A stretch of DNA of 64,000 nucleotides from Terriglobia bacterium (GTDB lineage Bacteria; Acidobacteriota; Terriglobia; Terriglobales; Acidobacteriaceae). The notes beneath the pieces were generated by a model, which saw only the letters and a list, made by a program, of their open reading frames with translations, made no database searches and was not told the DNA's origin. The number at the start of each line of letters is the position of its first letter. Position 1 is the stretch's first letter. The position numbers and the translations under genes were made by a program. Shown piece after piece: positions 14,104-33,519 of the stretch. The stretch is from contig JAIQFO010000010.1 in NCBI GenBank assembly GCA_020073215.1, positions 1 through 64,000 on the forward strand, written 5' to 3'.

Positions 14104-14133
14104 GGCGGCCAACACAACGGTGAGGAGGCTCCC

Positions 14134-14688: not shown

Positions 14689-14711
14689 GATTCGGGACTA
14701 AGGGGGCTGAA

Positions 14712-15068
14712 ATGCAACTTGAGATTCGGGGAAGAGATGTAGACATCAGTGACAAGCTACGCGACCACATTGAGCGCCGGCTCGGCTTCGCACTCGGACG
14801 CTTCGCTCAACGAATCAAGAGAGTTCTGGTATGCGTCGGCGAATTGAACGGGCCTCGGGGTGACATTGATAAAGGCTGTCGTGTGGCGATTCTGTTGGCG
14901 CCCTCGACCACTGTGGTCATGGAAGAACGGGATTCGGATGTCTACGTTGCGATTGACCGCGTGGCTGGAAAGGCGGACCGGTATATCGGACGGAGGCTCA
15001 AGCGCCCACGGAGAAGCGGTTCGTCGATGAAAATCGCTGAACTGCTGTCCTCCGAAAATAGAGTCTGA
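14712..15068 (+). CDS. Short HPF/RaiA-type ribosome hibernation factor-like protein
   Basis: A 118-residue S30AE-domain protein: MQLEIRGRDVDISDKLRDHIERRLGFALGRFAQRIKRVLVCVGELNGPRG, then an acidic/basic core and YVAIDRVAGKADRYIGRRLKRPR, the usual end of the domain. Such factors bind the 30S decoding centre and hibernate or protect ribosomes. It lacks the long-form dimerisation domain. A GGGGG-containing ribosome site precedes the ATG. Its place beside rubrerythrin and Rnk-like genes fits a stress or stationary-phase transcript. Confidence 0.78.
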   Translation: MQLEIRGRDVDISDKLRDHIERRLGFALGRFAQRIKRVLVCVGELNGPRGDIDKGCRVAILLAPSTTVVMEERDSDVYVAIDRVAGKADRYIGRRLKRPRRSGSSMKIAELLSSENRV

Positions 15069-15103
15069 TGGCGGGCCCGCCAGCAACTGAGGAAATCGAG
15101 GCC

Positions 15104-15508
15104 ATGAAAACGACACGAAAGAAAGTTCTGATCGCGGACTGCCATGAGGAGGTCCTTATCGTTCTAGAGAGGATGCTGGAGGACGCGGGATTTGACACAA
15201 CTACCGCCTGGACCGCCAAAGACGCATTGCAGCTAGTTGATTCGCAAAGTTTCGATCTGGTGCTGGTCAACGAATACCTGCCGGATGCGGAATGCGAGGA
15301 TCTGCTGAAGGCATTGCGTAAGAGGGGTGCACAAATGCCTTTGATTGTCATGCAGCCGAGCGCGCCCGAAATTACGGACTTCACTGTTCTCCAGGCCTTG
15401 GGGGCCCGCGACATTGTTTGCAAGTATGCCTACGGACAGATCGTCGAGATTGTGAGCGAGTGTCTTGCTTTCGACCAAAAGGCCTCGCTGGTTGTGGGAG
15501 CGCATTGA
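15104..15508 (+). CDS. Receiver-domain protein with substituted phosphoacceptor
   Basis: A 134-residue single receiver domain (KKVLIADCHEEVLIVLERMLEDAGFDTTTAWTAKDAL). The residue aligned with the phosphorylated Asp is Asn (FDLVLVNEYLPD), one of the N-terminal acidic residues is also lost (ADCH), and the conserved Lys remains (VCKYAYGQ). It is therefore probably a phosphorylation-independent pseudo-receiver. I prefer ATG 15104 (GAGG nearby); an ATG at 15068 overlaps the previous stop codon by one base and would add 12 residues. Confidence 0.75.
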   Translation: MKTTRKKVLIADCHEEVLIVLERMLEDAGFDTTTAWTAKDALQLVDSQSFDLVLVNEYLPDAECEDLLKALRKRGAQMPLIVMQPSAPEITDFTVLQALGARDIVCKYAYGQIVEIVSECLAFDQKASLVVGAH

Positions 15509-15539
15509 TGCTTCAAGCCGCCTTCTTGGAGGTGTTGCC

Positions 15540-15842
15540 ATGGATCCCGTTTACATGCTCGCATGTGGAATCGTCTGGCAGAAGACCGCCGATCCGGACG
15601 CAGGTTGGGAATTGGTCGACGGCCTGGAGTCTTCTGACCCCTGCCTACGTTTGCTCGCATGGAATCTCCTGGTTGAAAACGGCGAGCAGTCCATGGACTT
15701 TCTGGAGAGTGCCGTCGCAACGGGACAAGTAAGTCCGCAGGTGGCGGGCCCGTTGATGGCTGAGATTCTGCGAAGCGGAGAAGCCGGACCAATAGGTGGA
15801 AAGACAGTTCAACAGCATTTGGGCGACGTGTGGGTCTGTTGA
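15540..15842 (+). CDS. Hypothetical small helical protein
   Basis: A 100-residue protein beginning MDPVYMLACGIVWQKTADPD, helical with a HEAT-repeat-like feel (ELVDGLESSDPCLRLLAWNLLVENGEQSMDFLESAVATG). The ATG at 15540 has TTGGAGG upstream; a longer open frame reaches 15465 but overlaps the receiver gene. No family recognised. It lies between the pseudo-receiver and a single-pass membrane protein gene, close enough to share their transcript. Confidence 0.6.
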   Translation: MDPVYMLACGIVWQKTADPDAGWELVDGLESSDPCLRLLAWNLLVENGEQSMDFLESAVATGQVSPQVAGPLMAEILRSGEAGPIGGKTVQQHLGDVWVC

Positions 15843-15887
15843 CGGTGACGTCCAGCAGACTGACAACGAGTAGCTGAAGGAGCCCTT

Positions 15888-16085
15888 ATGGATGCGGCAA
15901 TGATCATGGTATTGGTTCTGTGCGCGGGGGTTGCCGCTCTTCTTGTGTGGTTTGAAATCAACTCTCGCAGAAACGAAGCCAGGAAGAAGCAAACGGCGAC
16001 GCCCTCTCAATCCACGTTTGAGCCCTTGCCGAAGGAAGCCCAGACCAAGGTGGAATCCGAGATTGAGAAGACCAAGGCTGCATAG
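15888..16085 (+). CDS. Small single-pass membrane protein
   Basis: A 65-residue protein with one N-terminal transmembrane helix (MIMVLVLCAGVAALLVWFEI) and a charged cytoplasmic tail rich in Lys/Glu (NEARKKQ ... KEAQTKVESEIEKTKAA). GAAGGAG stands in front of the ATG. Too short for family assignment; spacing suggests co-transcription with its neighbours. Confidence 0.6.
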   Translation: MDAAMIMVLVLCAGVAALLVWFEINSRRNEARKKQTATPSQSTFEPLPKEAQTKVESEIEKTKAA

Positions 16086-16121
16086 GTGTGACTAAGAACG
16101 GGGATCGGGAAGGAGTTCATC

Positions 16122-16604
16122 ATGAAAAGCCGCTCTATTGTCGTTACTGATGATGATATGGACAGGCTCAGCCGTTTGGTTCAGGCTCTGAAGCACTCTC
16201 TTTTTCGAGATCAACTGCAACTCGAATCACTGGAGCAAACCTTGGCAAGCGCAGAGGTGGCGCCTGGGGAGCGCGTTGCGAGAGACGTGATCAGGATGAC
16301 CTCCACTATCCGTGTTCTGGATCTCGACACGCGAAAGAAAGAGCTGTACACGCTGGTTTTTCCGGACAACGCAGACATCTCCACAAGTCAAATTTCTGTT
16401 CTCGCGCCGGTAGGAATTGCGCTCCTCGGCCGCAGACAGGGAGATGTCATCGAGACGAAAGTGCCTGGAGGCGCCAGGAGGTTGAGAGTGGAGTGGGTAT
16501 CGCAAAGACCGCGAACCGCAAGAAGGAGAATTTGGCCCGATCGAACAAATCGACGAGAGCTTCATTCCGGTCGAACGATTCGAAGGACAATTCTCGCCGC
16601 CTAA
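16122..16604 (+). CDS. Rnk-like/GreA-GreB C-terminal-domain protein with apparent frameshift
   Basis: Residues 1-125 match Rnk, the regulator of nucleoside diphosphate kinase: a coiled-coil-like start, VARDVIRMTSTIRVLDLDTRKKELYTLVFPDNADISTSQISVLAPVGIALLGRRQGDVIETKVPGGARRLRVEW. From about 16497 the frame turns into an Arg-rich tail (SQRPRTARRRIWPDRTNRR). The +1 frame instead reads YRKDREPQEGEFGPIEQIDE and continues acidic to a TAA at 16618-16620, a far more natural ending. One extra G in the GGG at 16495-16497 would explain this. It lies directly upstream of the P-type ATPase. Confidence 0.7.
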   Translation: MKSRSIVVTDDDMDRLSRLVQALKHSLFRDQLQLESLEQTLASAEVAPGERVARDVIRMTSTIRVLDLDTRKKELYTLVFPDNADISTSQISVLAPVGIALLGRRQGDVIETKVPGGARRLRVEWVSQRPRTARRRIWPDRTNRRELHSGRTIRRTILAA

Positions 16605-16630
16605 TCCGACCGCGGTTTAATGTCTCAGCT

Positions 16631-19267
16631 ATGGATACTGGTTCTGTGCACCTACCAACGGCACCCGGGGCCCGTCTCGACCCCGGTAGCCCTTCTGCGC
16701 TCGAATTTGAAAATGAGTCCCAATTAGCCGGACTGTCTTCAGAGGAAGCAAGAGAGCGCCTGGAAATCGATGGGCCGAATGAACTGCCTTCGTCCAGGCC
16801 CCGAAACGTCGCTGCCATCGCATGGGACGTAGTGAAAGAGCCAATTTTTCTGCTTCTCGTTGCCTGTGGAACCATTTATCTAATTCTCGGCGATGTGCAG
16901 GAAGCGTTGATGCTGCTGGGTTTTGTGTTCGTGGTAACCGGCATTAGTTTCTACCAGGAACACAAGACCGAGCGCACGCTGGAAGCTCTGCGCGATCTCT
17001 CAAGCCCCCGTGCTTTGGTGATCCGCGACGGCAAGCCCACGCGCATCCCGGGTCGCGAAGTGGTCAAAGGCGATGTGGTTGTGCTTTCGGAAGGGGACCG
17101 AGTTCCCGCTGATTCCCGCGTGATCTCCAGCGTCAACTTGTCTTGTGACGAATCGTTGCTGACAGGAGAATCGGTGCCAGTTCGGAAATCTGCGAGTGCA
17201 GCACCGGCCGACGCCGTTCGCCCCGGGGGAGACGACTTGCCGTTTGTTTATTCCGGCAGCCTGGTGGTGCAAGGCCGCGGAATTGGAGTTGTAGAGGCGG
17301 TCGGGCTGCTTACCGAGATCGGTAAGATTGGCAAAGCGCTGCAGTCCGTACACCTCGAGAAAACACGCCTGCAGCGCGAAACCGCTCGTTGGGTCCGCAT
17401 CCTTGCGATCGCGGGCGGGTTGCTCTGTCTGCTCGTCGTTGTGCTCCACGGCCTTACGCGCGGCAGTTGGCTTAACGGAGTCTTGTCAGGCCTCACCCTG
17501 GCGATGGCCATTCTTCCGAACGAATTGCCGGTGGTGTTGACCATATTCATGGCTCTGGGCGCTTGGCGTATGTCCAAGCGGCATGTCCTTACTCGTCGCG
17601 TGCCAGTGGTCGAGACGCTAGGTTCGGCATCGGTCTTATGCGTGGACAAAACCGGCACTGTGACCATGAATCAGATGTCGGTCCAAAACCTATTTGCGGG
17701 CGGCGAATTTCACATCTGTACGAATTCGAATCTTTCGCTCCCGGAGAAGTTTCACAACCTGATCGAGTTCAGCATCCTGGCGAACCATCGCGATCCTTTT
17801 GATCCGATGGAACGGGCATTGAACGAGTTTGGGAAATCCAGACTGGCAAACACGGAGCACTTGCACGGCGACTGGGGCCTGGTACGCCAATATCCACTCT
17901 CGCCCGAACTGCTCGCGCTATCGCAGGTCTGGAGATCGCCAGTTGGACCGGATTTTGTGATTGCCTCGAAAGGCTCACCGGAAGCCATCGCCGACCTATG
18001 CCACCTCAAGCCTGAGCAGATGGACGTGCTGTTCAACCAGGTCGGCTCATTGGCCAATGAGGGACTGCGGGTGCTCGGCGTGGCCAGGGCCTACTTTCAG
18101 GAATCGCACTTGCCCCAGAAACAACACGACTTCGACTTCGAGTTCCTCGGCTTGGTGGGTTTGGCTGATCCGGTGCGTCCCGGCGTCGCGCAGGCTGTAA
18201 AGGAATGCTACTCGGCGGGCATCCAGGTCGTCATGATTACCGGGGACTACGCGGGAACTGCCACGAACATCGGACGACAGATTGGACTGAGAAATCCTGA
18301 TCAATGCCTCACCGGCCCCGATCTCGACTCGATGGAGGATGTGGAACTGCGGCGGCGGGTTTGTACCACGAACGTCTTTGCGCGAGTTGTTCCTGAACAA
18401 AAATTGCGACTCGTGCGTGCTTTCCGGGCAAACGGCGAGATCGTAGCCATGACAGGGGATGGGGTGAATGATGCCCCGGCACTAAAAGCTGCGGATATTG
18501 GCATCGCCATGGGTGGCCGTGGTACCGACGTAGCCCGCGAAGCCGCAGCCCTGGTATTGCTGGACGATGATTTCTCTTCGATCGTCCACGCCGTCAGGCT
18601 GGGCCGGAGGATTTTTGACAACCTTAAAAAAGCAATTGCCTATACTCTGGCCAGTCATCTTCCTATCATTGGCCTGACGCTGGTTCCGGTGATGATGAGA
18701 TGGCCTCTCATACTTTTGCCGTTTCACGTGGCCTTCCTGCATCTCATCATCGACCCAGCCTGTTCTATAGTGCTTGAGGCAGAGCGTGAAGAATCAACCG
18801 TGATGCAGCATCCTCCGCGGGCTGCCAACGAACCATTGTTCGGACGCCGGACCTTTGCCATCAGCATTCTCCAAGGTCTCAGCGTGTTAGGTGTGGTCTT
18901 GGCGGTCTTTGCCACAGCCCACTACGGCGGAAGAAGGGAACAGGAGGCACGCGCACTGACCTTCACCACGCTCGTGATGGCGAACCTGGCATTGATCTTC
19001 ACGAACCGCTCGTGGGCGAGGACGATTCTGGCCAGATTGCACTCCCCCAATCCCTCACTTTGGTGGGTTATTGGAGGGACTATAGGGTTCTTGGGGTTCG
19101 TCATCTTTGTGCCTTTTTTGCGGGATCTGTTTGGCTTCTCCGTACTACATCCGATCGATCTTGCGGTGTGTGCAGGTGCGGCAGCGTTCAGCGTCCTGTG
19201 GTTTGAAGCATTTAAGCTGTGGGAAGCGCACAGACCCAAACCTCAACTATCGGAGGGGAGAACTTAG
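16631..19267 (+). CDS. Cation-transporting P-type ATPase (P2-like)
   Basis: An 878-residue P-type ATPase: cation-ATPase N-terminal domain (GLSSEEARERLEIDGPNELPSSRP), actuator motif TGES (near 178-181), transmembrane ion-binding motif PNELP (near 296, where SERCA-type pumps have PEGLP), phosphorylation site DKTGTVT (Asp near 339), hinge MTGDGVNDAPALKAADIGIAMG, and a C-terminal transmembrane block. It probably exports or imports a divalent cation (Ca or Mn); the ion cannot be fixed. I start at ATG 16631: a longer open frame to 16493 overlaps the true 3' end of the Rnk-like gene and encodes nonsense. Confidence 0.9.
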   Translation: MDTGSVHLPTAPGARLDPGSPSALEFENESQLAGLSSEEARERLEIDGPNELPSSRPRNVAAIAWDVVKEPIFLLLVACGTIYLILGDVQEALMLLGFVFVVTGISFYQEHKTERTLEALRDLSSPRALVIRDGKPTRIPGREVVKGDVVVLSEGDRVPADSRVISSVNLSCDESLLTGESVPVRKSASAAPADAVRPGGDDLPFVYSGSLVVQGRGIGVVEAVGLLTEIGKIGKALQSVHLEKTRLQRETARWVRILAIAGGLLCLLVVVLHGLTRGSWLNGVLSGLTLAMAILPNELPVVLTIFMALGAWRMSKRHVLTRRVPVVETLGSASVLCVDKTGTVTMNQMSVQNLFAGGEFHICTNSNLSLPEKFHNLIEFSILANHRDPFDPMERALNEFGKSRLANTEHLHGDWGLVRQYPLSPELLALSQVWRSPVGPDFVIASKGSPEAIADLCHLKPEQMDVLFNQVGSLANEGLRVLGVARAYFQESHLPQKQHDFDFEFLGLVGLADPVRPGVAQAVKECYSAGIQVVMITGDYAGTATNIGRQIGLRNPDQCLTGPDLDSMEDVELRRRVCTTNVFARVVPEQKLRLVRAFRANGEIVAMTGDGVNDAPALKAADIGIAMGGRGTDVAREAAALVLLDDDFSSIVHAVRLGRRIFDNLKKAIAYTLASHLPIIGLTLVPVMMRWPLILLPFHVAFLHLIIDPACSIVLEAEREESTVMQHPPRAANEPLFGRRTFAISILQGLSVLGVVLAVFATAHYGGRREQEARALTFTTLVMANLALIFTNRSWARTILARLHSPNPSLWWVIGGTIGFLGFVIFVPFLRDLFGFSVLHPIDLAVCAGAAAFSVLWFEAFKLWEAHRPKPQLSEGRT

Positions 19268-19899: not shown

Positions 19900-21264
<1,365 letters not shown>

Positions 21265-21329
21265 CGAGCGTCGCTGGCTCTGATCTCGACGCGCGCGTTA
21301 CGGTCCGCTGGATGATGCGGGGAGGGTCT

Positions 21330-23108
21330 ATGAGCGTCCTGAAGCCTCCGGCTGCGGAGTTGCCCATCTTTGACCGCAAGTTCTGGGACGGTACCTTCCG
21401 CTGCACACAAATCGGCTCTGCATCCCTCGGCGGCAAGGCCAACGGATTGGTGTTCATCAAGGATTTGCTGGCCAAGCGCATCGATGCCAAGTCCTTTCCC
21501 GATGTTGATATCAACGTCCCAACCATGGCGGTCATCGCGACCGACCGTTTTGATCAATTCATCGCGCAGAACCGTCTGGCAGGGCTGCCCTTCGATGAAA
21601 TGCCGGACGATCGCATCGCTCACGCCTTTCAGAAGTGCGACCTCCCGGTTGAACTGGTCGGTGATCTGCGCGCGTTGATTATTCAGGTTAAAACTCCTCT
21701 GGCGATCCGCTCTTCGAGCTTGCTTGAGGACGCGTTGGAGCGTCCGTTTGCTGGCGTCTACGCGACCAAAATGATCCCTAACAACCAGCCCGATCCGGAC
21801 GCACGATTTCGCCGGCTGATGGAGGCCGTAAAGTTTGTGTACGCATCGACCTACTTCCGCGAAGCCCGAGACTATATCCGGACTACCGGGACCAAGCCTG
21901 GCGAAGAGAAGATGGCGGTCATCATTCAAGAAGTAGTTGGGCAGCGTAGAGGAGACCGCTTTTATCCGGACATTTCTGGCGTGGCACGGTCCTACAACTT
22001 CTATGCCTTTGAACCCGCGCGCCCGGAAGACGGCGTTGTAACGTTGGCACTGGGGTTGGGGAAGACGATTGTCGACGGCGGCATCGCCTGGACTTTTTCA
22101 CCCGCCTATCCGGAGAAGCCGCCCCCATTCGCGACAGTGCAGGAGTTGGTGAAGGGCACCCAAACGGAGTTTTGGGCAGTCAACATGGGCAAACCGCCCG
22201 CCTACGATCCGGTCAGTGAGACCGAATACATGGTGCATGGGAATCTGGCCGATGCTGAGGCCGACGAGGCCTTGTCACTGCTTGCCTCCACCTACGATCC
22301 GGAACGCGACCGAATCGTTCCTGGGATTGGATCTCGGGGACCGCGTATCCTGAATTTTGCTCCGATGCTGGTGCGCGACGAGTTTCCCCTGAACGACTTG
22401 GTGAAAGCTCTGCTTAAGGCATCGGAGAAGACCGTTAAGGCCAAGGTCGAGATCGAGTTCGCCGTAACGTTTCAAGGGCGGCGTGGGGAACGACCGCGAG
22501 CGCGGTTGGGGTTCCTGCAGGTTCGCTCCATGGTGGTTTCCGATCAGGTGGTCGACGTCAATCTATCCGATCCGCGCGCCATTGTTGGATCGGATATGGT
22601 GATGGGCAACGGCACTACGGATGACATACAGGATATTGTTTTCGTGCGGCTCGACAAATTTTCTCCATTGCACACGCCTGCCATCGCTCAGCAATTGGAG
22701 TCGGTGAACCGTGAACTGCGGCAACAGCACCGACCCTTCCTGCTGATTGGATTCGGCCGCTGGGGCAGTTCCCATCCATCGCTCGGCATCCCCGTCGACT
22801 GGAGCCAGATCTCTGGGGCGCGGGCGATCGTCGAGGCGACGCTGCCCGAGATGAATGTGGAGTTGAGCCAGGGCTCGCACTTTTTTCACAACTTGTCGAG
22901 CTTTCGGGCAAGTTACTTCATGGTGCAACACGGGAGCCGTCCTGGAATCAATTGGGATTGGCTGAACCGCCAGCCCTTGGTGTACGAAACGGAATTTATC
23001 CGCCATGTGCGTCCGACAGAGAGACTCTCAGTGCGCGTTGACGGGCGGACCGCCAAAGGAGTAATCCTGTCGCAGACCCGGGACAACGCGAGCCGAGCAA
23101 GAAAATGA
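21330..23108 (+). CDS. PEP/pyruvate-binding (PPDK_N-like) domain protein, short paralogue
   Basis: A 592-residue protein with the ATP-grasp N-terminal domain of PEP synthase/pyruvate phosphate dikinase: GSASLGGKANGLVFIKDLL, then LAIRSSSLLEDALERPFAGVYATK and MAVIIQEVVGQRRGDRFYPDISGVA. I see no phosphohistidine swivel domain or PEP-binding barrel. Instead, residues from about 480 carry FLLIGFGRWGSSHPSLGIPVDW and SQGSHFFHNLSSFRASYF, a segment shared with the next gene. The reaction is unknown. GGGGAGGG precedes ATG 21330. Its stop codon overlaps the next start as ATGA, implying coupled translation. Confidence 0.8.
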   Translation: MSVLKPPAAELPIFDRKFWDGTFRCTQIGSASLGGKANGLVFIKDLLAKRIDAKSFPDVDINVPTMAVIATDRFDQFIAQNRLAGLPFDEMPDDRIAHAFQKCDLPVELVGDLRALIIQVKTPLAIRSSSLLEDALERPFAGVYATKMIPNNQPDPDARFRRLMEAVKFVYASTYFREARDYIRTTGTKPGEEKMAVIIQEVVGQRRGDRFYPDISGVARSYNFYAFEPARPEDGVVTLALGLGKTIVDGGIAWTFSPAYPEKPPPFATVQELVKGTQTEFWAVNMGKPPAYDPVSETEYMVHGNLADAEADEALSLLASTYDPERDRIVPGIGSRGPRILNFAPMLVRDEFPLNDLVKALLKASEKTVKAKVEIEFAVTFQGRRGERPRARLGFLQVRSMVVSDQVVDVNLSDPRAIVGSDMVMGNGTTDDIQDIVFVRLDKFSPLHTPAIAQQLESVNRELRQQHRPFLLIGFGRWGSSHPSLGIPVDWSQISGARAIVEATLPEMNVELSQGSHFFHNLSSFRASYFMVQHGSRPGINWDWLNRQPLVYETEFIRHVRPTERLSVRVDGRTAKGVILSQTRDNASRARK

Positions 23109-26100
23109 AACCGGACGATACTCAATTCGGAACCATGCTCCACGCTCTGCAAGAGCGGGCCAAGGAATTGAATTGCCTGTACCGGGTAGGAGAACTTCTC
23201 AGTCGGTCGGATCAATCTCTCGAGCAGATTTTCCGCGGCATCATCGAAGTCCTGCCGCCAGGCTGGCAATACCCGCACGACTGTCAAGCTCGGATCCTCT
23301 TTGAGAACTTGACCATCCAGTCGCCGGATTTCCAGGCAACGCCATGGGTTCAGAAAGCCACCATCGTCGCGCAGGATGAGACGGTGGGGACGGTCGAGGT
23401 TTACTACCGGCGAGAGATGCCGAGATCGGACGAAGGCCCGTTTCTCAAAGAAGAGCGCAGGCTGATTGAGACGATTGCCGAGCGAATCGCAAGCGCGGTC
23501 ACGCAACGACGCCTGAGAACCGCATTCGAGGGCTGGGCAGCCGCGGATGCAGCAGCGACCGCTCAAGGGGAGTGGCGTGTCGTGCTCGAGTTCCTGCGCG
23601 AAACGGACCCTGCCTTGTTGAAGCGAATTTCGCGCAAATTGATCAATCATTTGAGCTGGAGCGGAGTCCAGGAGGCCAAGGAACTCCTGCGTCGCGGTGG
23701 GGCGACCTTGCCTGCCGAACCTGGCCTTTCCGCCGATGAGAATCGGCCTCTTCCTCAGGACGCTCCCGGCCATTCCTCCGACTTGACCACCCAGGCGCTC
23801 CGCATCGCCGGGGAGCATTTGAGCGACACCGAAATCCTCAATTGTGTGACTCGATGGATCAAAGAAGACAAGGCCAGCTTTTTGGTACGAGCGCTGGAAA
23901 ACCAGGACACTTCGCTGGGAGAGATTATGGAGTGTGTCGAGCGCTATCGGCACACCGGTGTCGAGGAGGACGAACTCTCGCTCTACACTCAGAAGGGTCT
24001 CCGGGTATCGTTGATCCGCCGCTTCTTTTCCGAAAGCCTCGACTTCATCAACGTGGCCAAGAACTTCATCGACGTTAAGGATTTCTATGATCTGTTAGGT
24101 AAGGTTATCTTCCCGCCTGGTTGCCACGGCAAGCTGGGCGGTAAGAGCGCGGGCTTGTTTCTGGCCAAGAAGATCATAGACAAGTCCCCGGAAGCGAGCG
24201 CCCTTCTGCACGAAGTCAAGGTGCCTCGAACCTGGTACCTCACCTCCGATTGGATTCAGAACTTCGTCCACCATAACGATCTGGAGGATGTTCTCAACCG
24301 GAAATACATGGAGATCGACCAGGTTCGGCAGGAATACCCGCATCTGGTCGCTCTGTTCAAGAGCTCGTCTGTCCCTTCGGAATTGGCCAAGGGACTCGCA
24401 CTCGCGCTCGAGGATCTCGGTGATGTTCCGCTGATTGTCCGCAGTTCGAGTTTACTGGAGGACCGCCCTGGCTCTGCTTTCTCCGGCAAGTACAAGAGTT
24501 TGTTCTTGGGCAACCGGGGGACTAAGGAAGAGCGACTCGCTGCCTTGATGGACGCGATCGCCGAGGTGTACGCCTCGATCTTCGGCCCGGACCCCACCGA
24601 ATACCGTGCCGAGCGAGGCCTGCTGGATGTCCACGAAGAGATGGGCATCATGATCCAGGAAGTTGTGGGCAAGGCCGTTGGCAAATACTTCCTGCCCGCG
24701 TGCTCTGGGGTCGCGTTCAGCAACAATGAGTTCCGCTGGTCCGCCCGCATCAAACGCGAGGATAGCCTCATACGTCTCGTGCCTGGGCTGGGAACACGTG
24801 CTGTGGATCGCGTCGCCGATGATTATCCCGTGCTGATCGCTCCAGGCCAGCCGAGTTTGCGAGTCAACGTTACCGCTGACGAAGTGCTGCGGTATTCACC
24901 CAAGCGGATTGATCTCATCAATCTGGAAACCAACGCTTTCGAGACCGTCGATGTGGCGGAACTCCTGCGCTATTCCGGCGCCACGTACCCACAAATTCGC
25001 AACCTGGTATCGCTCGTGAGCCGTGATCGGATCGAGCCAATCATCGGACCGCTGCCGGACTTCAGCGCTCAAGATGCGGTCTTCACCTTTGAAGGACTGA
25101 TCCGGAAGACTCCGTTTGTAACTTGTATCCGCGAATTGTTGGAACTGTTGCAATCCAAGCTCGCGACACCGGTAGACATTGAGTTCGCCTACGACGGGGA
25201 GGATTTCTATCTGCTTCAGTGCCGACCCCAGAGCTACGGCGCTGACGCGGTTCCGGTCGCGATCCCGCAGAACCTGCCGTCGGACAAGGTCATCTTTTCA
25301 GCTGCCCATTTTGTTTCGAATGGCAAGGTACCGGACATCACGCACATTGTGTACGTCGATCTCGAGGGCTACAGCCAGCTCTCAGATCAGACGGCCATGC
25401 GCGATGTCGGGCGTGCGGTCGGCAGACTCAATAAGCTGTTGCCGAAACGCCAGTTCATCCTGGTCGGGCCCGGACGCTGGGGTAGCCGCGGAGACATTAA
25501 ACTGGGCGTTCCGGTGACCTACTCCGATATCAACAACACGGCAATGTTAATCGAAGTAGCGCGCCAGCGAGGAAATTACCTGCCCGAACTGTCATTCGGG
25601 ACCCACTTCTTCCAGGACCTCGTAGAGGCCTCGATCCGCTACCTGCCGCTGTACCCCGACGATCCAACGACAGCGTTCAACGAAGTCTTCTTTCGAAGGT
25701 CACGCAATGTCCTTCAGGAATTGCTCCCAGAATTCGCGCACCTTGCGGAGACACTCCGGGTAACTGACGTACCGATGGAAACTGGTGGGCTCATCCTGCG
25801 GGTGCTCATGAACGCCGACTTGGACCAAGCGGTTGGGTTCCTGTCACCCCCGCAGCAGAAGATCGGATCCATCGAATCCGCGGTTGAGTCCATTGATCGG
25901 GGAACGAATGAGCACTGGCGCTGGCGTTTTCGCATGGCACAGAGCATTGCGGCAGATCTCGATCCACGAAAGTTTGGGGTGAAGGCCTTCTACCTTATCG
26001 GCAGCACCAAGAACGCCACCGCGGGGCCCGCCAGTGATATTGACATCCTGCTGCATTTTCAGGGAAGCGACGAACAGATGAAAGAACTGATGCTCTGGCT

Positions 26101-26284
26101 CGAAGGGTGGAGCCGCTGTCTTGCAGAAATCAACTTCTTGCGGACCGGGTATCGCTCTGACGGTCTTCTTGATGTGCACCTGGTCACGGATCGGGACATC
26201 GCAGAGCATTCGAGCTTCGCCGTCAAAATCGATGCCGTCACGGATCCCGCGCGTAAATTGCCGATGAAGGATTCTCAGGTTTGA
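23105..26284 (+). CDS. GAF-like / PPDK_N-like / nucleotidyltransferase fusion protein
   Basis: A 1059-residue multidomain protein. Residues 1-150 look like a sensory GAF domain (RAKELNCLYRVGELLSRS ... FLKEERRLIETIAERI). A helical linker follows, then a PPDK_N-type ATP-grasp domain from about 340 (GKLGGKSAGLFLAKKII, IVRSSSLLEDRPGSAFSGKYKSLF, MGIMIQEVVG, IEFAYDGEDFYLLQCRPQS ending near 705), and the segment shared with the upstream paralogue (FILVGPGRWGSRGDIKLGVPV near 790). The C-terminus carries a polymerase-beta-type nucleotidyltransferase core: GS at 966-967 and D-I-D at 978-980 (TAGPASDIDILL). No phosphohistidine domain is visible. Translationally coupled to the paralogue upstream. Probably a signal-responsive nucleotide-using enzyme; reaction unknown. 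Confidence 0.8.
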   Translation: MKPDDTQFGTMLHALQERAKELNCLYRVGELLSRSDQSLEQIFRGIIEVLPPGWQYPHDCQARILFENLTIQSPDFQATPWVQKATIVAQDETVGTVEVYYRREMPRSDEGPFLKEERRLIETIAERIASAVTQRRLRTAFEGWAAADAAATAQGEWRVVLEFLRETDPALLKRISRKLINHLSWSGVQEAKELLRRGGATLPAEPGLSADENRPLPQDAPGHSSDLTTQALRIAGEHLSDTEILNCVTRWIKEDKASFLVRALENQDTSLGEIMECVERYRHTGVEEDELSLYTQKGLRVSLIRRFFSESLDFINVAKNFIDVKDFYDLLGKVIFPPGCHGKLGGKSAGLFLAKKIIDKSPEASALLHEVKVPRTWYLTSDWIQNFVHHNDLEDVLNRKYMEIDQVRQEYPHLVALFKSSSVPSELAKGLALALEDLGDVPLIVRSSSLLEDRPGSAFSGKYKSLFLGNRGTKEERLAALMDAIAEVYASIFGPDPTEYRAERGLLDVHEEMGIMIQEVVGKAVGKYFLPACSGVAFSNNEFRWSARIKREDSLIRLVPGLGTRAVDRVADDYPVLIAPGQPSLRVNVTADEVLRYSPKRIDLINLETNAFETVDVAELLRYSGATYPQIRNLVSLVSRDRIEPIIGPLPDFSAQDAVFTFEGLIRKTPFVTCIRELLELLQSKLATPVDIEFAYDGEDFYLLQCRPQSYGADAVPVAIPQNLPSDKVIFSAAHFVSNGKVPDITHIVYVDLEGYSQLSDQTAMRDVGRAVGRLNKLLPKRQFILVGPGRWGSRGDIKLGVPVTYSDINNTAMLIEVARQRGNYLPELSFGTHFFQDLVEASIRYLPLYPDDPTTAFNEVFFRRSRNVLQELLPEFAHLAETLRVTDVPMETGGLILRVLMNADLDQAVGFLSPPQQKIGSIESAVESIDRGTNEHWRWRFRMAQSIAADLDPRKFGVKAFYLIGSTKNATAGPASDIDILLHFQGSDEQMKELMLWLEGWSRCLAEINFLRTGYRSDGLLDVHLVTDRDIAEHSSFAVKIDAVTDPARKLPMKDSQV

Positions 26285-26285
26285 A

Positions 26286-27143
26286 CTAAAGCAAATCCCG
26301 GGTAGCAGCCTCAGGTGATTCCAGATCAAAACGTACCAGTGCCAACTCCGGCCCATCGTGAGCGCCGTTGATGCAGATGGTGCGTCCGATCCGGATTTTC
26401 CACTCGCCGGTCAATCGCGCAGCCTCATGAACATGCCCGTGCAAGGTGAGCAGCGGCTGCCGCTCCTCGATAAATCGTTGGACCGCGATGCTGCCGACGT
26501 GGACATCCAGCGGAACGTGCTCATAAGTCTTCCCGTCCAGCGCCGCGCGGTCTAACGGCGTGTCGCACGGCGGCGTATGAAAGAGAAATACCGCGCGATC
26601 AAGCGGATCTTCGCCCACAAGTGAAGCTAGGTCTTTCTGGATTGTTGCCCATTTGATCTCGCTCTCTTCCGCCGGCACGCTCCTATAGCCCTCCTCCGGA
26701 GAAACACAGCCAGGAGGCACGTACCGGGAGACATCGTAATGCTCCCAGTCCTTCAGCATGAATGGAGTCGGAGGAACATAGGCGAGGCCATATACGGGAA
26801 AATCTCCCAAGAGAACCTTCCGTCCGTGGATGTAGTGCCAGATGCCATCGGTTGCTGCCGCGACGAAAGCTTCCTCTTCGCGTCGTGGGTCGTCGTTGCC
26901 CAGGATGAGGAAGATGTCAGGATAGTTGAAGTCCAGTGCGTCGCGGGTTCGAGCGAAAGTCGGGACTAGATAGTCGTGAACAAAATCAGCCTGTTCGGAT
27001 TGGATCGGAGAGTGTGCTGCACGAGGGAGCAAATCTCCACCGAGGAACACTGCACTGGGGCGATCCCTGATGATCGACGCGATGAGTTTGTCGTATCGGT
27101 CGGTATGTCCATGCAGATCCGTGGCGAAGAAGCAGGTCGGCAA
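26286..27143 (-). CDS. Calcineurin-like metallophosphoesterase
   Basis: A 285-residue phosphoesterase with the full metal-site set: DLHGH near the N-terminus, GGDLL, GNDD, a His in FLFHTPPCD, and HGHVHEA near the C-terminus. It starts at TTG (27141-27143), giving MPTCFFATDLHGH, with AAGGA about 10 nt upstream; the nearest ATG is out of frame. It ends one base from the end of the convergent nucleotidyltransferase fusion gene, with no room for a terminator. Substrate unknown; cytoplasmic by sequence. Confidence 0.85.
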   Translation of the reverse strand: MPTCFFATDLHGHTDRYDKLIASIIRDRPSAVFLGGDLLPRAAHSPIQSEQADFVHDYLVPTFARTRDALDFNYPDIFLILGNDDPRREEEAFVAAATDGIWHYIHGRKVLLGDFPVYGLAYVPPTPFMLKDWEHYDVSRYVPPGCVSPEEGYRSVPAEESEIKWATIQKDLASLVGEDPLDRAVFLFHTPPCDTPLDRAALDGKTYEHVPLDVHVGSIAVQRFIEERQPLLTLHGHVHEAARLTGEWKIRIGRTICINGAHDGPELALVRFDLESPEAATRDLL

Positions 27144-27527: not shown

Positions 27528-28553
27528 TTATGGCCGGGCAGAGTAGGGGACAAGATACACTGCCGCGATTTCTTCCTCGGTGAAATACGGATAGGCGGGC
27601 ATCGTATCCCCTCCCGTCATTTTCATCGTGGCGCAAGAACCATATTGCACCTGATGAACGACGCCGCTGAGAGAGTGATCTCTGGGGATGCTGGCCAGCG
27701 ACGGTATGGTCCCTTGCGTCATGGCCGAATGCCCGCTTCCAGGACCGGTCGCGTCGTGACAGACATGGCAGGTTCCTCTCACGATGTGCTCTCCGACGCG
27801 GGCCGCTGATTCCGGGACCCGAAGTCCATCGCGCTTGGTGGGCGGGACCGACGCCAGCTTCTCCAGATAACCGAACAAAGCTTCCACCTCGTCGGCACGC
27901 AGGTATTCGAACGACGGCATGTTCTTTCCACCGTGTTGGAAGCGGTCACGCAGAGAGGCTTCCGCCAGTTCCGTCGTCTGTTGAATCACGTCATCATCCA
28001 CGTCGAGTCCCCTCGCCTCCATGCGCCTTCGCGACAGTACGGGGGAAGTCCCTTGCACCGGGCCAAGCACGGAGTTGATTTCCGGCGGCGCTCCTTGCCC
28101 ATCGGGCCCATGACACGACTGGCAATTCCAGCGGTACAGGTCGGCGCCCGATGCCGAGAAGTTTTCATTCAGGATTGCCCCAGCCTTTTCCGGGCTGGAG
28201 CGGAAGGTTGACAGAAAGCGTTGAATGAGCGAGTTCAAGTTGGCTGGCCCGGCAGGATCTCCGCCCGGCGGTTGCGGATTGACTTGCGGGTTGGCGGCGA
28301 GGGCGCCGGTTCCTCCCACCTGGCCCATGCGAGTTTGTGACACCGTGAGGCCGAGATGCTTAATACAGCTCGGCCCCTTGGCGGAGGGAATGGAATACTC
28401 ACGAACGGTTGCTTCCGAGACGGCTGTGGCCGTGGGCCGGAGCGCAATCCCGTGTTCCTTATTGGCGGTTACGTTCTGAGCGTAAACCGAAGCCAGCAGC
28501 CCAGCCACCGCCAGGGTTGCCGCGACTGCGAAAATAGCAAATGTCCGTTTCAT
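27528..28553 (-). CDS. Diheme cytochrome c, exported
   Basis: A 341-residue protein with a signal peptide (MKRTFAIFAVAATLAVAGLLASVYAQ) and two class-I cytochrome c domains: CQSCH at 144-148 (RWNCQSCHGPDGQG) and CHVCH at 262-266 (RGTCHVCHDATGPG). Possible Met ligands are in GGKNMPSFEYL and GGDTMPAYPYF. It is the last gene of the minus-strand electron-transfer operon, 77 bp behind the NrfD fusion gene, with GAGGGG before the ATG. It probably carries electrons in the periplasm from the membrane complex to an acceptor. Confidence 0.88.
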   Translation of the reverse strand: MKRTFAIFAVAATLAVAGLLASVYAQNVTANKEHGIALRPTATAVSEATVREYSIPSAKGPSCIKHLGLTVSQTRMGQVGGTGALAANPQVNPQPPGGDPAGPANLNSLIQRFLSTFRSSPEKAGAILNENFSASGADLYRWNCQSCHGPDGQGAPPEINSVLGPVQGTSPVLSRRRMEARGLDVDDDVIQQTTELAEASLRDRFQHGGKNMPSFEYLRADEVEALFGYLEKLASVPPTKRDGLRVPESAARVGEHIVRGTCHVCHDATGPGSGHSAMTQGTIPSLASIPRDHSLSGVVHQVQYGSCATMKMTGGDTMPAYPYFTEEEIAAVYLVPYSARP

Positions 28554-28630
28554 GGCGTGCCCCTCATTCGAATTACGGAATGGAATGACGAAATCACCTT
28601 CAAAATTTGGACCGCAAACCTCGGTGAATA

Positions 28631-30715
28631 TTAAGTACCCGTCGCGGCGGGCGCTGCCTTAACGTGAGCCGGAGCCGCCCCTTGGGAGAACTTGCGCATC
28701 TTAAACAAGATGAGGTATCCAAAAGCATAGATAAAAGCCGCCCACATCATGCCGTAAAACAGCAGAAACGGAGCGGCGATATACGGTGTGGCGTAAGGCG
28801 TGATCAACACGCCGGCCCGGGGCAGGGAAGGCGCCGGGCGCGCGCCAAAATCGACGGAGATATTGAAGGTTGCGGGAGCATACTCGTCGTCGCCGTGGAA
28901 GACGGCCTCGACGGGATAAGTGCCGTAGCGATGGTCCTTGATGACCAGTTGTGCTTTGCCGTCCGCGAGGGTGGGACGGCTGCCGAAGGACAGGGTACCG
29001 AGAGGTGTTTTGGCCGAAAACTCCACAGGCTTGAAGCTGATGGGCGCGCCGGTCGAGTCGCGCAAGGTGGCAGTGACAGAAACCGGCGGCGACGGTTTCA
29101 AGTCCTCTTCAGCGGGGTGGTCTGGGGACGTTTCCAGAGTGAACAGCCGGCCGGTGTACATGAAGGCGGGCGCGCGCGGTAGAAGAGACGTGCTTTCGTC
29201 GGTGGCAGATTCGCGGTTGGCCTGCGCCGCCGGAACGGTTTTCCATTCCACTGTAATCGCTGTTGGCTTCGGCGTTTTGGGCTTGGCAGGGCCAGCGGCG
29301 TTCGCGGATCTGCCATACAGCAACAGCGCCGCGACCGCCAGAATTGGAAACACCGCTCCCGGTTTCCACCAGCGCGAAGGCACGGACTCGTTGGGTAGGT
29401 CGGACACGGCAACCTCCTCCGGCTGTTCGCGCGTCTCCCAGATCGAAACGATGGGGAACAGCTTGACCATTAAGGTGTAGATCAGGGCAAAGCCGGCCAC
29501 CGCAGCCGCGGTTATCGACCACTCCACCCAGGTGGGATGGTAATGAGTCCATTCCCAAGGCAATCTCTGTCCCGAGGGCAGATAAGGGCTGCGCAGGGTG
29601 GGCACCACGATGATGTAGCGCTTAGCCCATGCGCCCACAATCACCAGTGCCGAAGAGAGCACCACGCCGGGGATGGTATAGCGGTGATAGCGCTTGAGGC
29701 CGAGCACAGCGATCATGAGGACTAGCGGAATAAACACGCACAGGCTCTGCGCGACCCAGAACAACACGGCGTAGTCGCCGACGAAGAGCCGCTGCATCAG
29801 CATGCGCTCGCTGCCCTCCAGCTTGTAGCCCGCCGTCAGATATTCGTTGATATTGAAATACAGATACATGAGCGAGAAGGCCAGCAGCAGCAGGCCAAGG
29901 TTGCGGAAGTGCAACTCTTCGACGTAGTCGTGCAGGTGAAAGACGCGCCGCAGCACGTACATGGAGAAGATCACGCCCGCGGTTCCGGAATAAATGGCGC
30001 CAATCACAAAGTAGGGACCAAAAATGCTGCTGTTCCATCCCGGCCGGAGAGTCATGGCGAAGATCCACGAGACCACGGTGTGAACGGAAACCGCCAGCGG
30101 GATGATGAAAATAGCCATGAAGGAAATGGCTTTCTCGAGCAAGGCTTTCTGCTGTGGCGTTCCGGTCCAGCCGATGGCCAGCGTGCTGTAGAGGCGGCGG
30201 CGCCAGGAAGCAAGCCGCGGTTGCTCGGCCAGGAAGGCCAGATCCGGGATCATCGGGATATAGAAATACAGGATGCAGCCGGTCAGGTAGGTGCTCACGC
30301 CCAGCACGTCCCAGATGATGGGCGACTGGATACGGCCGTAGCGGAACAGGTTGAGCATGCGGTCGGGCCGCCCCATATCGATCATGACCATGGGGCCGCC
30401 GATGCAGAGGGCAAACACGGTGATGGCCTCGGCCATGCGCGTAATCGGGGTGCGCCACGCGGTGTCGGTGACGCGCAGGATGGCCGAGATCAGAGTGCCG
30501 GCGTGGCTGATACCGATGAAGAAGACGAAATTAGTGATGTACAGTCCCCAGGAAATCTGGTCGCGCATGCCGGTGACGATGAGCCCGTTCCGCAGTTGCT
30601 GGATGTAGGCGTAGAGCCCCCAGAGGAGGACGACGATCAGGAATCCCACCCAGACATAGAACCGCCAGGTGTTCTCCAGCACAGAACGCAACAGGTTCTG
30701 CTCACGAGCTTCCAT
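28631..30715 (-). CDS. NrfD-family membrane subunit fused to a C-terminal Ig-like domain
   Basis: A 694-residue protein. Residues 1 to about 440 are an NrfD/PsrC-type quinol-interacting membrane subunit with 8-10 transmembrane helices (WGLYITNFVFFIGISHAGTLISAILRV; GGPMVMIDMGRPDRMLNLFRYGR; SWIFAMTLRPGWNSSIFGPYF). A further helix and a Pro/Lys-rich linker lead to a periplasmic-looking Ig-like domain (about 540-640: VSVTATLRDSTGAPISFKPVEFSAKTPLG ... GTYPVEAVFHGDDEYAPATFNISV), then a last transmembrane helix. NrfD subunits oxidise or reduce quinones for partner Fe-S subunits; the Ig extension is unusual. ATG 30715 has GAGAGG upstream. Confidence 0.85.
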   Translation of the reverse strand: MEAREQNLLRSVLENTWRFYVWVGFLIVVLLWGLYAYIQQLRNGLIVTGMRDQISWGLYITNFVFFIGISHAGTLISAILRVTDTAWRTPITRMAEAITVFALCIGGPMVMIDMGRPDRMLNLFRYGRIQSPIIWDVLGVSTYLTGCILYFYIPMIPDLAFLAEQPRLASWRRRLYSTLAIGWTGTPQQKALLEKAISFMAIFIIPLAVSVHTVVSWIFAMTLRPGWNSSIFGPYFVIGAIYSGTAGVIFSMYVLRRVFHLHDYVEELHFRNLGLLLLAFSLMYLYFNINEYLTAGYKLEGSERMLMQRLFVGDYAVLFWVAQSLCVFIPLVLMIAVLGLKRYHRYTIPGVVLSSALVIVGAWAKRYIIVVPTLRSPYLPSGQRLPWEWTHYHPTWVEWSITAAAVAGFALIYTLMVKLFPIVSIWETREQPEEVAVSDLPNESVPSRWWKPGAVFPILAVAALLLYGRSANAAGPAKPKTPKPTAITVEWKTVPAAQANRESATDESTSLLPRAPAFMYTGRLFTLETSPDHPAEEDLKPSPPVSVTATLRDSTGAPISFKPVEFSAKTPLGTLSFGSRPTLADGKAQLVIKDHRYGTYPVEAVFHGDDEYAPATFNISVDFGARPAPSLPRAGVLITPYATPYIAAPFLLFYGMMWAAFIYAFGYLILFKMRKFSQGAAPAHVKAAPAATGT

Positions 30716-30736
30716 GCGCACCTCTCATCATCAGTA

Positions 30737-31579
30737 TCAGTGCTCCATTCCCGGCATTGCGGCTTGGGCGGTTTCGGTTTGCGCCTTCTCGTCCGGAGAC
30801 GGGTATTTGCGGCTGGCCGGAGGCAGATAGTAAACGCTGGGCTCCGTTCCCAGTTCTTCCATCAGCCGGAAACTGGCCCCGCGCTTGGCGATCTTGGTGA
30901 ACTGGATGGTCTCGCCCTTGCCGTTGGTCACCGCATCATCCAATTTGTCGCCAAAATAGATCGCGCCCATCTTGCAGGTCGCGGCACAGGCGGGAAGCTT
31001 GCCCATGCGGAGATGTTCGGGGCAGAAGATGCACTTTTCTACCGTGCCTTTGCGGTGCGGGTAGTTGTATTCCACGTTGTAAGGACGCGCGAATTCTTCG
31101 CGCGTGTGCGGTGGCTCTCCCCAGTTGAACGAGCGCGCCGAGTACGGGCATTGCGCGATGCAATTGCGGCAGCCGATGCAGCGATCGTCATCCTGGATGA
31201 CAACGCCGTCGGTGCGTTTGTAGGTGGCGCCCACGGGACAACCGCGCACGCACGGCGGGTTGTCGCACTGCATACAGGGACGGGGCAGAAAGTAAGGCCC
31301 GGCCGCCTCGTTGTCGGTGATTTCAAAAACCTTGATCCACTCCTGCATGGGCGGAACGAAGTGCATCGCGGTGCAGGCCTTGGTGCAGTCGCGGCAGCCA
31401 TCGCACTTGGCCAGGTCAATCACCATCACCCATTTCTGGTTGCCGGGAGCCAGCGACCGGGAAGGCAGCACCTCGCGAAACACCTTCGAGACGCTTGCCT
31501 TCCAGGCCACGCCCACCGCCACGGCGGCCCCTGTCCCCCGTGCCAGAAAGTGCACGAACCCGCGCCGCGTTATTGTCAT
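30737..31579 (-). CDS. Four-cluster ferredoxin-type electron-transfer subunit with Tat-like signal
   Basis: A 280-residue HybA/NrfC/DmsB-type subunit. The N-terminus has a twin-arginine motif (MTITRRGFVHFLARG, Arg5-Arg6), pointing to Tat export. Four [4Fe-4S] motifs follow: CDGCRDCTKAC, CMQCDNPPCVRGC, CIGCRNCIAQC, and CIFC with a spaced CAATC. It would wire electrons between the NrfD subunit and the periplasmic cytochromes or cupredoxin. Downstream NrfD gene starts 21 bp away. No molybdopterin catalytic subunit accompanies it. GGGGTGAG precedes the ATG. Confidence 0.92.
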   Translation of the reverse strand: MTITRRGFVHFLARGTGAAVAVGVAWKASVSKVFREVLPSRSLAPGNQKWVMVIDLAKCDGCRDCTKACTAMHFVPPMQEWIKVFEITDNEAAGPYFLPRPCMQCDNPPCVRGCPVGATYKRTDGVVIQDDDRCIGCRNCIAQCPYSARSFNWGEPPHTREEFARPYNVEYNYPHRKGTVEKCIFCPEHLRMGKLPACAATCKMGAIYFGDKLDDAVTNGKGETIQFTKIAKRGASFRLMEELGTEPSVYYLPPASRKYPSPDEKAQTETAQAAMPGMEH

Positions 31580-31607
31580 GGCTCACCCCACGAAGGTTTG
31601 TGTTTGC

Positions 31608-32039
31608 TCACGGTATGACGACCAGCCTCATCTTCATGTCGTCGTGGCCTTGGCCGCATTTGACCGTACACTCCACCACATAACTGCCCGGCTCCGCGGG
31701 AGCCACCAGAGTGAAGTCCTGCGTGCCTTCCTTCAGGCGCAGATCCCAGCCCTGGTCCTTGAGCGCATTGACGGTGAAGGTATGGACGGTGCCATCCTTG
31801 TCCCACTCGGTGCTCTTGTTGGCGGTGATGCGCAGGTGCACCACCTCGTTGACCTTCAAGGTGATCACCGGGAGCTTCTGGCCGGCGATTTTGTACCGGT
31901 TGTCCTTGTCGGCGACCACGGTGATCAGCCGCGGTGCGGCGCCTGCGATGGCGAGCGGAGACAGGATACCCAGCACACAGGCAAACACGACTGGCAGCAG
32001 AATTCGATTTGTTCTTGACAAGGCCCACCTCTCCTTCAT
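31608..32039 (-). CDS. CuA-type cupredoxin, exported
   Basis: A 143-residue protein with a signal peptide or anchor (to about residue 35) and one cupredoxin domain. The ligand set is that of the dinuclear CuA site of cytochrome oxidase subunit II: His86 (GTVHTFTV) and Cys124-x3-Cys128-x3-His132-x2-Met135 (VECTVKCGQGHDDM). The Glu usual between the Cys residues is Val. There is no oxidase subunit I gene, so it probably acts as a free or membrane-anchored electron carrier within this operon. ATG 32039 is chosen because GGAGGTGG lies 6 nt upstream. Confidence 0.85.
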   Translation of the reverse strand: MKERWALSRTNRILLPVVFACVLGILSPLAIAGAAPRLITVVADKDNRYKIAGQKLPVITLKVNEVVHLRITANKSTEWDKDGTVHTFTVNALKDQGWDLRLKEGTQDFTLVAPAEPGSYVVECTVKCGQGHDDMKMRLVVIP

Positions 32040-32227
32040 GTCGGTCCACCTCCGCTGATGCAATCCGGAATCCAGTCCGCTGTCGAAAACTCTTTACTCG
32101 CCCGGACCAGCGCCAAATGCCTGCAAACTCATACCGGAACGGCGCTGGCAGGGCGAAGTTTGGGGTGGGCGAGATGAGGGTGTACAGATTTCTGCCGCGC
32201 GGTTGCGGAAGGGGATCGGACAGTTTG

Positions 32228-32244
32228 TGTCCGATACTCGGACA
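32228..32244. promoter_or_regulatory. 17-bp palindrome, putative activator site, copy 2
   Basis: TGTCCGATACTCGGACA, a perfect 6-bp inverted repeat with a 5-bp spacer, preceded by another CGGACA half-site (32217-32222). It sits just after the tetraheme gene stop codon and about 190 bp before the cupredoxin start. It matches the palindrome at 33609-33625, so the NtrC-type regulator encoded nearby may also act here. Confidence 0.55.
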
Positions 32245-32246
32245 GG

Positions 32247-33479: not shown

Positions 33480-33503
33480 AGTCAGCCTCCGGTGGAAAAC
33501 TCC

Positions 33504-33519
33504 CGCAATCGCTTGGCCA
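33504..33519 (-). promoter_or_regulatory. Sigma-54-type -24/-12 promoter of the electron-transfer operon
   Basis: On the minus strand: TGGCCAAGCGATTGCG, matching TGGC-N8-TTGC with the invariant GG and GC exactly 10 bp apart. Transcription would start near 33493, just ahead of the GGAGG (33486-33490) and GTG start of the tetraheme gene. The adjacent activator gene has the sigma-54-contacting GAFTGA loop. Confidence 0.7.

Follow-up and report, generated by a model that had tools for sequence, protein, structure and literature searches.

The closest described relatives of the genes reported here are pyruvate phosphate dikinase (PPDK) and phosphoenolpyruvate (PEP) synthase, together with the small-molecule dikinases rifampin phosphotransferase (RPH), HpeHI, CreHI and PpsAB. 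According to excerpts of two reports, in characterised dikinases with the ATP-grasp domain concerned the phosphoryl group is received by a histidine that sits on a swivel domain (PMC4844700, PMC12167813), and the ATP-grasp part can work as a separate subunit, HpeI, the partner HpeH supplying the swivel histidine domain (excerpt of PMC12167813). The DNA analysed here (the window, i.e. the whole stretch of 64,000 nucleotides at positions 1 to 64,000 of contig JAIQFO010000010.1, assembly GCA_020073215.1) comes from an Acidobacteriota genome of 5.6 Mb in 111 contigs. At 19900-26284 it encodes, all in one direction (+), a glutamate dehydrogenase (GDH) and two proteins with this ATP-grasp domain, of 592 and 1059 amino acids, referred to below as the short and the long protein. 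Both end in, or continue into, a shared C-terminal segment, and the long protein carries in addition a GAF-like sensor domain, a helical region and a nucleotidyltransferase domain. We conclude with high confidence that the long protein works together with GDH, and with moderate confidence that it acts on GDH via covalent modification. The reading we prefer, to which we would give a probability of about 0.48, is that the long protein is a dedicated GDH partner, an enzyme that uses ATP, is under the control of a sensor and alters the activity of GDH, most probably by modifying it covalently.

The partnership is indicated above all by gene neighbourhoods. Genomes, one per species, were scanned with an alignment of 18 long proteins and the patterns SFGTHFFQ and IVRSSSLLE, and since the best 80 loci of at least 589 stretches were kept, the survey favours close relatives; the closest named locus among them, in a Terriglobia metagenome-assembled genome, encodes a long protein 91% identical to that of the window. 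Searched by tblastn with GDH, the short protein and the metallophosphoesterase encoded next to the long gene in the window, 70 of the 80 loci proved to contain GDH, which in every one of the 70 shares the strand of the long gene and precedes it by no more than 3.7 kb. In each of the ten other loci the sequence upstream is shorter than 2.8 kb, and every locus with more than 4.5 kb (51/51) has GDH upstream; the coupling to GDH proposed in the first-pass annotation, which was made from the sequence of the window alone, turns out to be conserved across phyla. The short gene lies directly upstream of the long one in 47/80 loci, with GDH preceding it in 42; in the remaining 33, some of which are at contig edges, GDH is still within 2.3 kb upstream in 28. 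A metallophosphoesterase gene follows the long gene in 34 loci, always within 400 bp (27 convergent, seven in the same direction). Clustering of neighbouring open reading frames (ORFs) in the 80 loci recovered the family itself in 77 loci, GDH in 60 and the phosphoesterase in 31, followed by response regulators in 12; a cluster found in 11 loci is an artefact of antisense frames.

A tree of 63 long proteins (62 of the 80 loci and the window) carries 19 phylum labels, which follow the submitters, with 28 changes between them, nine rows being unlabelled. The underlying alignment omits two near-copies (L057, L059), three loci in which no usable long ORF was called (L078, L097, L112), and a set excluded for a cut at the contig edge, a frame break, a merger of paralogues or a missing nucleotidyltransferase domain (L062, L066, L073, L074, L091, L102, L110, L113, L115, L125, L130, L132, L134). 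As the scan used the two patterns named above, conservation of those motifs in the 63 rows is partly selected; the 36 short proteins aligned (the window and 35 of the 47 adjacent short genes) and the 18 query long proteins were found without them. Distance matrices of GDH and the long protein correlate with r 0.49 in 56 loci, against a highest value of 0.22 in 999 permutations, which is not decisive, because species history alone yields correlation.

Closer to the window, the long gene occurs in seven of 24 genomes of its own genus, each time behind GDH and the short gene, and the phosphoesterase accompanies it in six of these seven loci (the window and L029-L033), none having been found in L034. 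One copy of the genus (G003:C151; L014, L033) has an in-frame TAG stop in the long gene and was for this reason left out of one alignment; the six others, including the window, are intact. Among 396 genomes of the phylum we counted 81 GDHs at least 60% identical to the window GDH, of which, among the genes listed, at least 60 are within 8 kb of a long-type gene and at least 72 in a genome having one; the corresponding figure for less similar GDHs is at least two near a long-type gene out of 42 checked, taken from a longer list. The 60 GDHs near a long-type gene comprise 34 that face a gene labelled as having the nucleotidyltransferase domain (some cut short by a contig edge) and 26 (23 distinct genes) that face one aligned only up to a point before this domain. 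The constant unit is therefore GDH plus the helical region, ATP-grasp domain and shared segment of the long protein, whereas the short partner and the nucleotidyltransferase are optional. The first-pass interpretation thus stands as regards the ATP-grasp domain, the segment, the sensor, the nucleotidyltransferase and the GDH coupling, but the pair of paralogues is not the core unit, and the nucleotidyltransferase fusion is not essential. Nothing encountered, no test aimed at it having been made, speaks for the role in dormancy that had been mentioned as a possibility.

The link to GDH extends to a second form of the protein and a second GDH family. Relatives of about 1000 amino acids have the same ATP-grasp domain and shared segment behind a receiver-like N-terminus (24.7 and 28.2 bits against Response_reg, just below the cut-off of 30.2), and the short protein is more similar to them (34-49% identity) than to the long proteins (27-32%). 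We found 31 genes of this form in 50 of the 80 genomes, 15 of them within 8 kb of a gdhA gene of the Escherichia coli type, including 12 within 450 bp as judged from estimated gene starts. The window's own genome has such a pair on another contig (G000:C16; L035 209-3178 and 6837-8219), about 3.7 kb apart on the same strand. In Parabacteroides distasonis, a gene annotated as 'PEP/pyruvate-binding domain-containing protein' is divergent from and adjoins gdhA, and another GDH gene follows after 3.5 kb. Both forms meet in one locus (L148, G101:C162:8000-22000), where the order is GDH, ~1000-amino-acid gene, long-type gene without the nucleotidyltransferase, gdhA and GDH, i.e. two GDHs of archaeal type and one of E. 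coli type. Separately, plasmid records of Haladaptatus and Ilyobacter hold genes for more distant proteins annotated as PEP/pyruvate-binding, without an annotated GDH nearby.

Adjacent paralogues with the ATP-grasp domain of PPDK and PEP synthase had been recognised from the letters alone, and the Pfam domain PPDK_N indeed covers residues 32-407 of the short protein (113.5 bits) and 343-720 of the long protein (192.1 bits; cut-off 27). The ATP-site positions checked are invariant in both alignments: GGK, R446, D691/E693, Q705 and R707 in 63/63 long proteins, and GGK, R127, E374/E376, Q397 and R399 in 36/36 short proteins. AlphaFold2 models of the short and the long protein (mean predicted local distance difference test score 87.8 and 83.4; predicted template modelling score 0.87 and 0.70) have as their best Foldseek matches RPH (5hv3; E 1.8e-13 and 5.9e-14, respectively), followed by HpeI (9goj, E 6.1e-10) and PPDK for the short and by PEP synthase and PPDK for the long model. 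In RPH, Lys22 and Arg117 are needed to phosphorylate the drug and the Mg-binding Glu297 is not, according to an excerpt of the report (PMC4844700); by motif position, we take Lys22 and Arg117 to be the probable counterparts of ATP-site residues here.

While fold and ATP-site motifs are those of PPDK and PEP synthase, the rest is different: no swivel domain or PEP/pyruvate barrel is recognisable, an unrelated segment follows, and the proteins are tied to GDH. Pfam reported neither the phosphohistidine family PF00391 nor a PEP-barrel family for the window pair at E<=1, for 36 short and 18 long proteins at E<=0.1, or for 34 C-terminal segments at E<=10, where the HMMER filters drop most matches above ~0.1. 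The C-terminal PEP/pyruvate barrel is thus absent from the Pfam scans, the fold alignments not having been checked residue by residue. Proteins carrying both PPDK_N and PF00391 occur separately in the same genome. Nor does any of the recurrent neighbours in the 80 loci (GDH, metallophosphoesterase, response regulators), which were not scanned for PF00391, look like a partner of the HpeH kind. Neither of the outcomes named in the first-pass annotation as refuting it appeared: no standard phosphohistidine or PEP domain was found, and the genes often stay together.

The shared segment, noted in the first-pass annotation as not known from PPDK, is real. Profiles of the short and long families match with 100% probability over residues 340-856 of the long protein, and the segment alone with 99.4% (E 6.7e-22). 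In the long protein it contains N776, GxGRWGS (788-794), E817 and SxGTHFF (830-836), with the listed positions kept in 63/63 sequences and their equivalents in 34 to 36 of the 36 short proteins, except for a Ser/Thr swap (25/11) at position 480. No Pfam family was found in the 34 segments scanned, the best hit of the segment profile in the PDB had an E-value of 0.26, and no fold match of either model stood for the segment; a Rossmann-like GxGxxG start, considered on the strength of that single PDB match, was dropped. Model confidence falls below 50 at residues 795-801 of the long protein, just past GxGRWGS. According to DSSP on the models, the segment has the pattern beta-strand, GSH at a helix start, beta-strand, which is somewhat swivel-like. 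If the system is confirmed, the segment would be a new enzyme domain.

The domains attached to this core are less constant. NTP_transf_2 scores 22.4 bits in the window long protein (cut-off 21) and is found in 18/18 long proteins at E<=0.1, and the model matches the nucleotidyltransferase of a HEPN-MNT pair (8xeh_E, E 0.014, Foldseek probability 1.00). The minimal catalytic core read from the sequence, G966 S967 and D978-I-D980, is where it was said to be, and the third carboxylate, D1023, is present as well. The set is complete in 56/63 long proteins; of the seven others, six have one change and one (L105) has lost most of it. GlnE and GlnD are nucleotidyltransferases that modify glutamine synthetase and PII, and they resemble the present case in that such an enzyme is linked to a central ammonia-assimilating enzyme. 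They differ in that the domain here is minimal and MNT-like, the partner is GDH and an ATP-grasp domain is present; no GlnE or GlnD family was among the Pfam matches of the window and of 18 long proteins. MntA-type (HEPN-MNT) antitoxins share the fold, but NF047752 scores 18.9 bits, far under its cut-off of 60, and the domain is here fused to an ATP-grasp protein beside GDH.

For the GAF-like sensor proposed for the longer copy, GAF structures are among the fold matches of the model at E ~0.1 (8jrc_B, E 0.13, probability 1.00), and the assignment is weak by sequence (16.1 bits, cut-off 22.4; 4/18 long proteins at E<=0.1). Nearby proteins with the same N-terminal domain (RAKELNCLY-like) recur in 6/80 loci (L081, L087, L091, L114, L124, L133), and L144 has one too; they were located at L081 2578-3750, L087 911-2776, L114 3199-4497, L124 2567-4201, L133 1535-3238 and L144 3180-4337. 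The five scanned (L081, L087, L114, L124, L133) are histidine kinases, each followed by a gene that, by eye in the ORF list, resembles a response regulator. As the sensor domain is common to adjacent histidine kinases with their regulators and the long protein, one signal may reach both transcription and the long protein.

The paired GDHs have features of their own. A set of 20 less similar GDHs served as comparison for 68 GDHs beside long genes and 21 beside long genes without the nucleotidyltransferase. An insertion that follows strand 2 of the coenzyme domain bears W270 in 96% of the 68 and in 21/21, and is a gap in 20/20 of the others; a second insertion, near A306, is a gap in 17/20, and further positions are likewise common to the paired GDHs. 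The region after strand 2 of the coenzyme domain usually sets the NAD/NADP preference, and the coenzyme, even the substrate, of the window GDH might differ from those of an ordinary GDH. Four GDHs of the same subfamily without a nearby long gene keep W270. N396 is changed in all four of these, and Q148, M175, H180 and D434 in three, whereas the five positions are kept in 94-100% of the 68 and in 20 or 21 of the 21 paired GDHs. These five residues are only candidate contact positions, and weak ones, because a single family supplies three of the four unpaired GDHs, and a fragmentary genome the fourth.

The N-terminal domains vary while the ATP-grasp domain and the shared segment stay, as expected of a regulated effector, and the linkage to two GDH families, the exchangeable N-termini and the conserved ATP site speak for a regulator acting on GDH. 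In such a scheme, the GAF-like domain (receiver-like in the ~1000-amino-acid relatives) would sense a signal and the ATP-grasp domain would transfer a phosphoryl group, perhaps via the invariant histidine of GTHFF/GSHFF, the recipient being either GDH or a small ligand that the shared segment binds. The nucleotidyltransferase, where present, would add a second modification of the nucleoside monophosphate type, the short paralogue could be an accessory protein or a copy under different control, and removal of the modification may fall to the metallophosphoesterase. In its boldest version, which we put forward tentatively and consider rather less probable than the general reading, a system spread over many phyla would consist of a sensor-ATP-grasp enzyme that phosphorylates GDH by means of a new catalytic segment, possibly a new phosphohistidine carrier, with the nucleotidyltransferase as a second switch and the phosphoesterase as eraser; it would serve two GDH families and be the GDH counterpart of GlnE/GlnD.

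Several observations weigh against the idea of a GDH-modifying partner. Adjacency shows a common role, not its nature. Three loci (L098, L128, L135) have no GDH in their 1.6-2 kb of upstream sequence, other genes sitting where it would be expected in L128 and L135, and neither GDH nor the short gene being found in the 2 kb upstream in L098. Nine of the 81 subfamily GDHs are in genomes without a long-type gene among the matches listed. Similarly, for 16 of the 31 genes of the ~1000-amino-acid form the contig has no gdhA match, and for two of these the whole genome gave none; 10/50 genomes have gdhA without such a gene, and a Prevotella record (L179) has no gdhA within 7 kb of it. The nucleotidyltransferase is absent or altered in many family members, and Y278 in the GDH insertion, considered as its target, was rejected as a specific one because it is retained in 21/21 GDHs paired with proteins lacking the domain. 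As a phosphate acceptor, the segment's invariant histidine comes to mind first, but only as a candidate; it lacks the GGxxxH context that swivel domains have according to an excerpt of PMC12167813. When the segment was compared by profile with the 20 phosphohistidine domains that a motif search caught in 30 loci, the probabilities were 0.5% and 0.2%, a weak test because 19 of the 20 are of one PPDK type; a divergent phosphohistidine domain, lacking Pfam and PDB support too, was set aside and kept only as a possibility.

Of the other explanations, the one to be taken most seriously, although we regard it as rather unlikely, is that the long protein has a metabolic instead of a regulatory task: as a kinase or ligase driven by ATP, it would bind in the shared segment something that GDH consumes or makes (glutamate, 2-oxoglutarate, ammonia) and act on it, and the cluster would be a short pathway. 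Phosphorylated or ligated small molecules are common products of ATP-grasp enzymes, the invariant N776, GxGRWGS, E817 and SxGTHFF would suit such a site, and the low confidence at 795-801 is what one would expect of a loop closing on a ligand; the close fold relatives also phosphorylate small molecules, as excerpts of the reports describe (PMC4844700, PMC12167813). Yet a GAF-like, receiver-like or missing N-terminus and an extra nucleotidyltransferase fit regulation better, the neighbour clustering in the 80 loci found no further pathway gene kept in the cluster, and the GDHs to which these proteins are linked belong to two different families. Control of GDH without chemistry, by a subunit sensing ATP, ADP or AMP or an assembly factor that binds GDH allosterically, would account for the conserved gene order and for the candidate contact positions, which are changed in at least three of the four unpaired subfamily GDHs. 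We nevertheless consider it clearly unlikely: pure binding would not require the invariance of the ATP-grasp positions checked, the nucleotidyltransferase set is intact in 56/63, and the contact positions carry little weight for the reason given above. There is hardly any room for the suggestion that these are ordinary PEP synthases or PPDKs, or remnants of them, in incidental company, even though the PPDK_N domain and the automatic annotation of a relative as a PEP/pyruvate-binding protein invite it; the proteins scanned have no phosphohistidine or PEP domain, those with PPDK_N plus PF00391 are separate proteins in the same genome, and the constancy of GDH in loci with enough sequence (51/51) already contradicts it.

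We class the system as categorically new, because no test for a known family was passed beyond single domains, the segment has no Pfam or PDB relative, and no account of this GDH link was found in the open-access literature (subscription papers and gene-neighbour databases were outside the search). The remaining parts are of known folds, except for the helical region between the sensor and the ATP-grasp domain. GDH stands at the junction of carbon and nitrogen metabolism, and we know of no described switch by which GDH in many anaerobes and uncultured bacteria turns from the synthesis of glutamate to its breakdown and back. Retained beside GDH through 19 phylum labels, and equipped with an ATP site, a segment of invariant residues, a sensor-like domain and often a nucleotidyltransferase, the long protein is a strong candidate switch of this kind, and suggests that GDH, an enzyme central to nitrogen metabolism, is controlled or powered in a manner not yet described. 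Since P. distasonis has a relative beside gdhA, it may be feasible to test the idea in Bacteroidales that can be cultured. Such a role would also explain what some of the proteins do that are at present called just 'PEP/pyruvate-binding domain-containing protein'; more distant proteins that have no GDH nearby share this name.

Table 1. Features of the GDH locus in the window (positions are those of the window).
Feature	Position	Strand	Evidence
GDH, 454 amino acids, archaeal-type ELFV family	19900..21264	+	Pfam ELFV_dehydrog 231.1 bits, ELFV_dehydrog_N 179.6 bits
Short PPDK_N protein, 592 amino acids: ATP-grasp and shared C-terminal segment	21330..23108	+	ORF, Pfam, AlphaFold2, 36-member alignment
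ATP-grasp (PPDK_N) of short protein	21423..22550	+	E 7.9e-33; motifs 36/36
Shared C-terminal segment of short protein (GFGRWGS ... GSHFF)	22551..23105	+	Profile comparison, conservation; no Pfam family
ATGA overlap, short stop and long start	23105..23108	+	ORF coordinates
Long protein, 1059 amino acids: GAF-like sensor, helical region, ATP-grasp, shared segment, nucleotidyltransferase	23105..26284	+	
GAF-like sensor domain of long protein, residues 1-150	23105..23554	+	Weak Pfam GAF, fold matches, recurrence in other proteins
ATP-grasp (PPDK_N) of long protein	24131..25264	+	E 2.0e-57; fold matches; motifs 63/63
Shared C-terminal segment of long protein (GPGRWGS ... FGTHFF)	25265..25864	+	Profile comparison, conservation
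Nucleotidyltransferase domain (G966 S967, D978, D980, D1023)	25907..26281	+	Pfam, fold, catalytic set
Calcineurin-like metallophosphoesterase	26286..27143	-	Pfam Metallophos 25.8 bits, cut-off 21.5

The coordinates (table 1) bear out the ATGA overlap of the two paralogous genes pointed out in the first-pass annotation. Both ELFV domains are present in the GDH, the start of which was picked from homologues; its stop is 65 bp from the ATG of the short gene, from which the 592 amino acids are counted, the mechanical ORF opening at GTG 21240. The phosphoesterase gene is convergent with the long gene, with a gap of 1 bp. As for the surroundings, assessed from the ORF list, 13450-19267, before the cluster, presumably encodes a rubrerythrin-like protein and a P-type cation ATPase (16493-19267), and 14712-15068 a small protein that we take to resemble a ribosome hibernation factor. 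Beyond the phosphoesterase, 27528-33533 (-) holds look-alikes of cytochrome c, NrfD-like membrane, 4Fe-4S ferredoxin-like and cupredoxin proteins, which we assume to form a respiratory complex.

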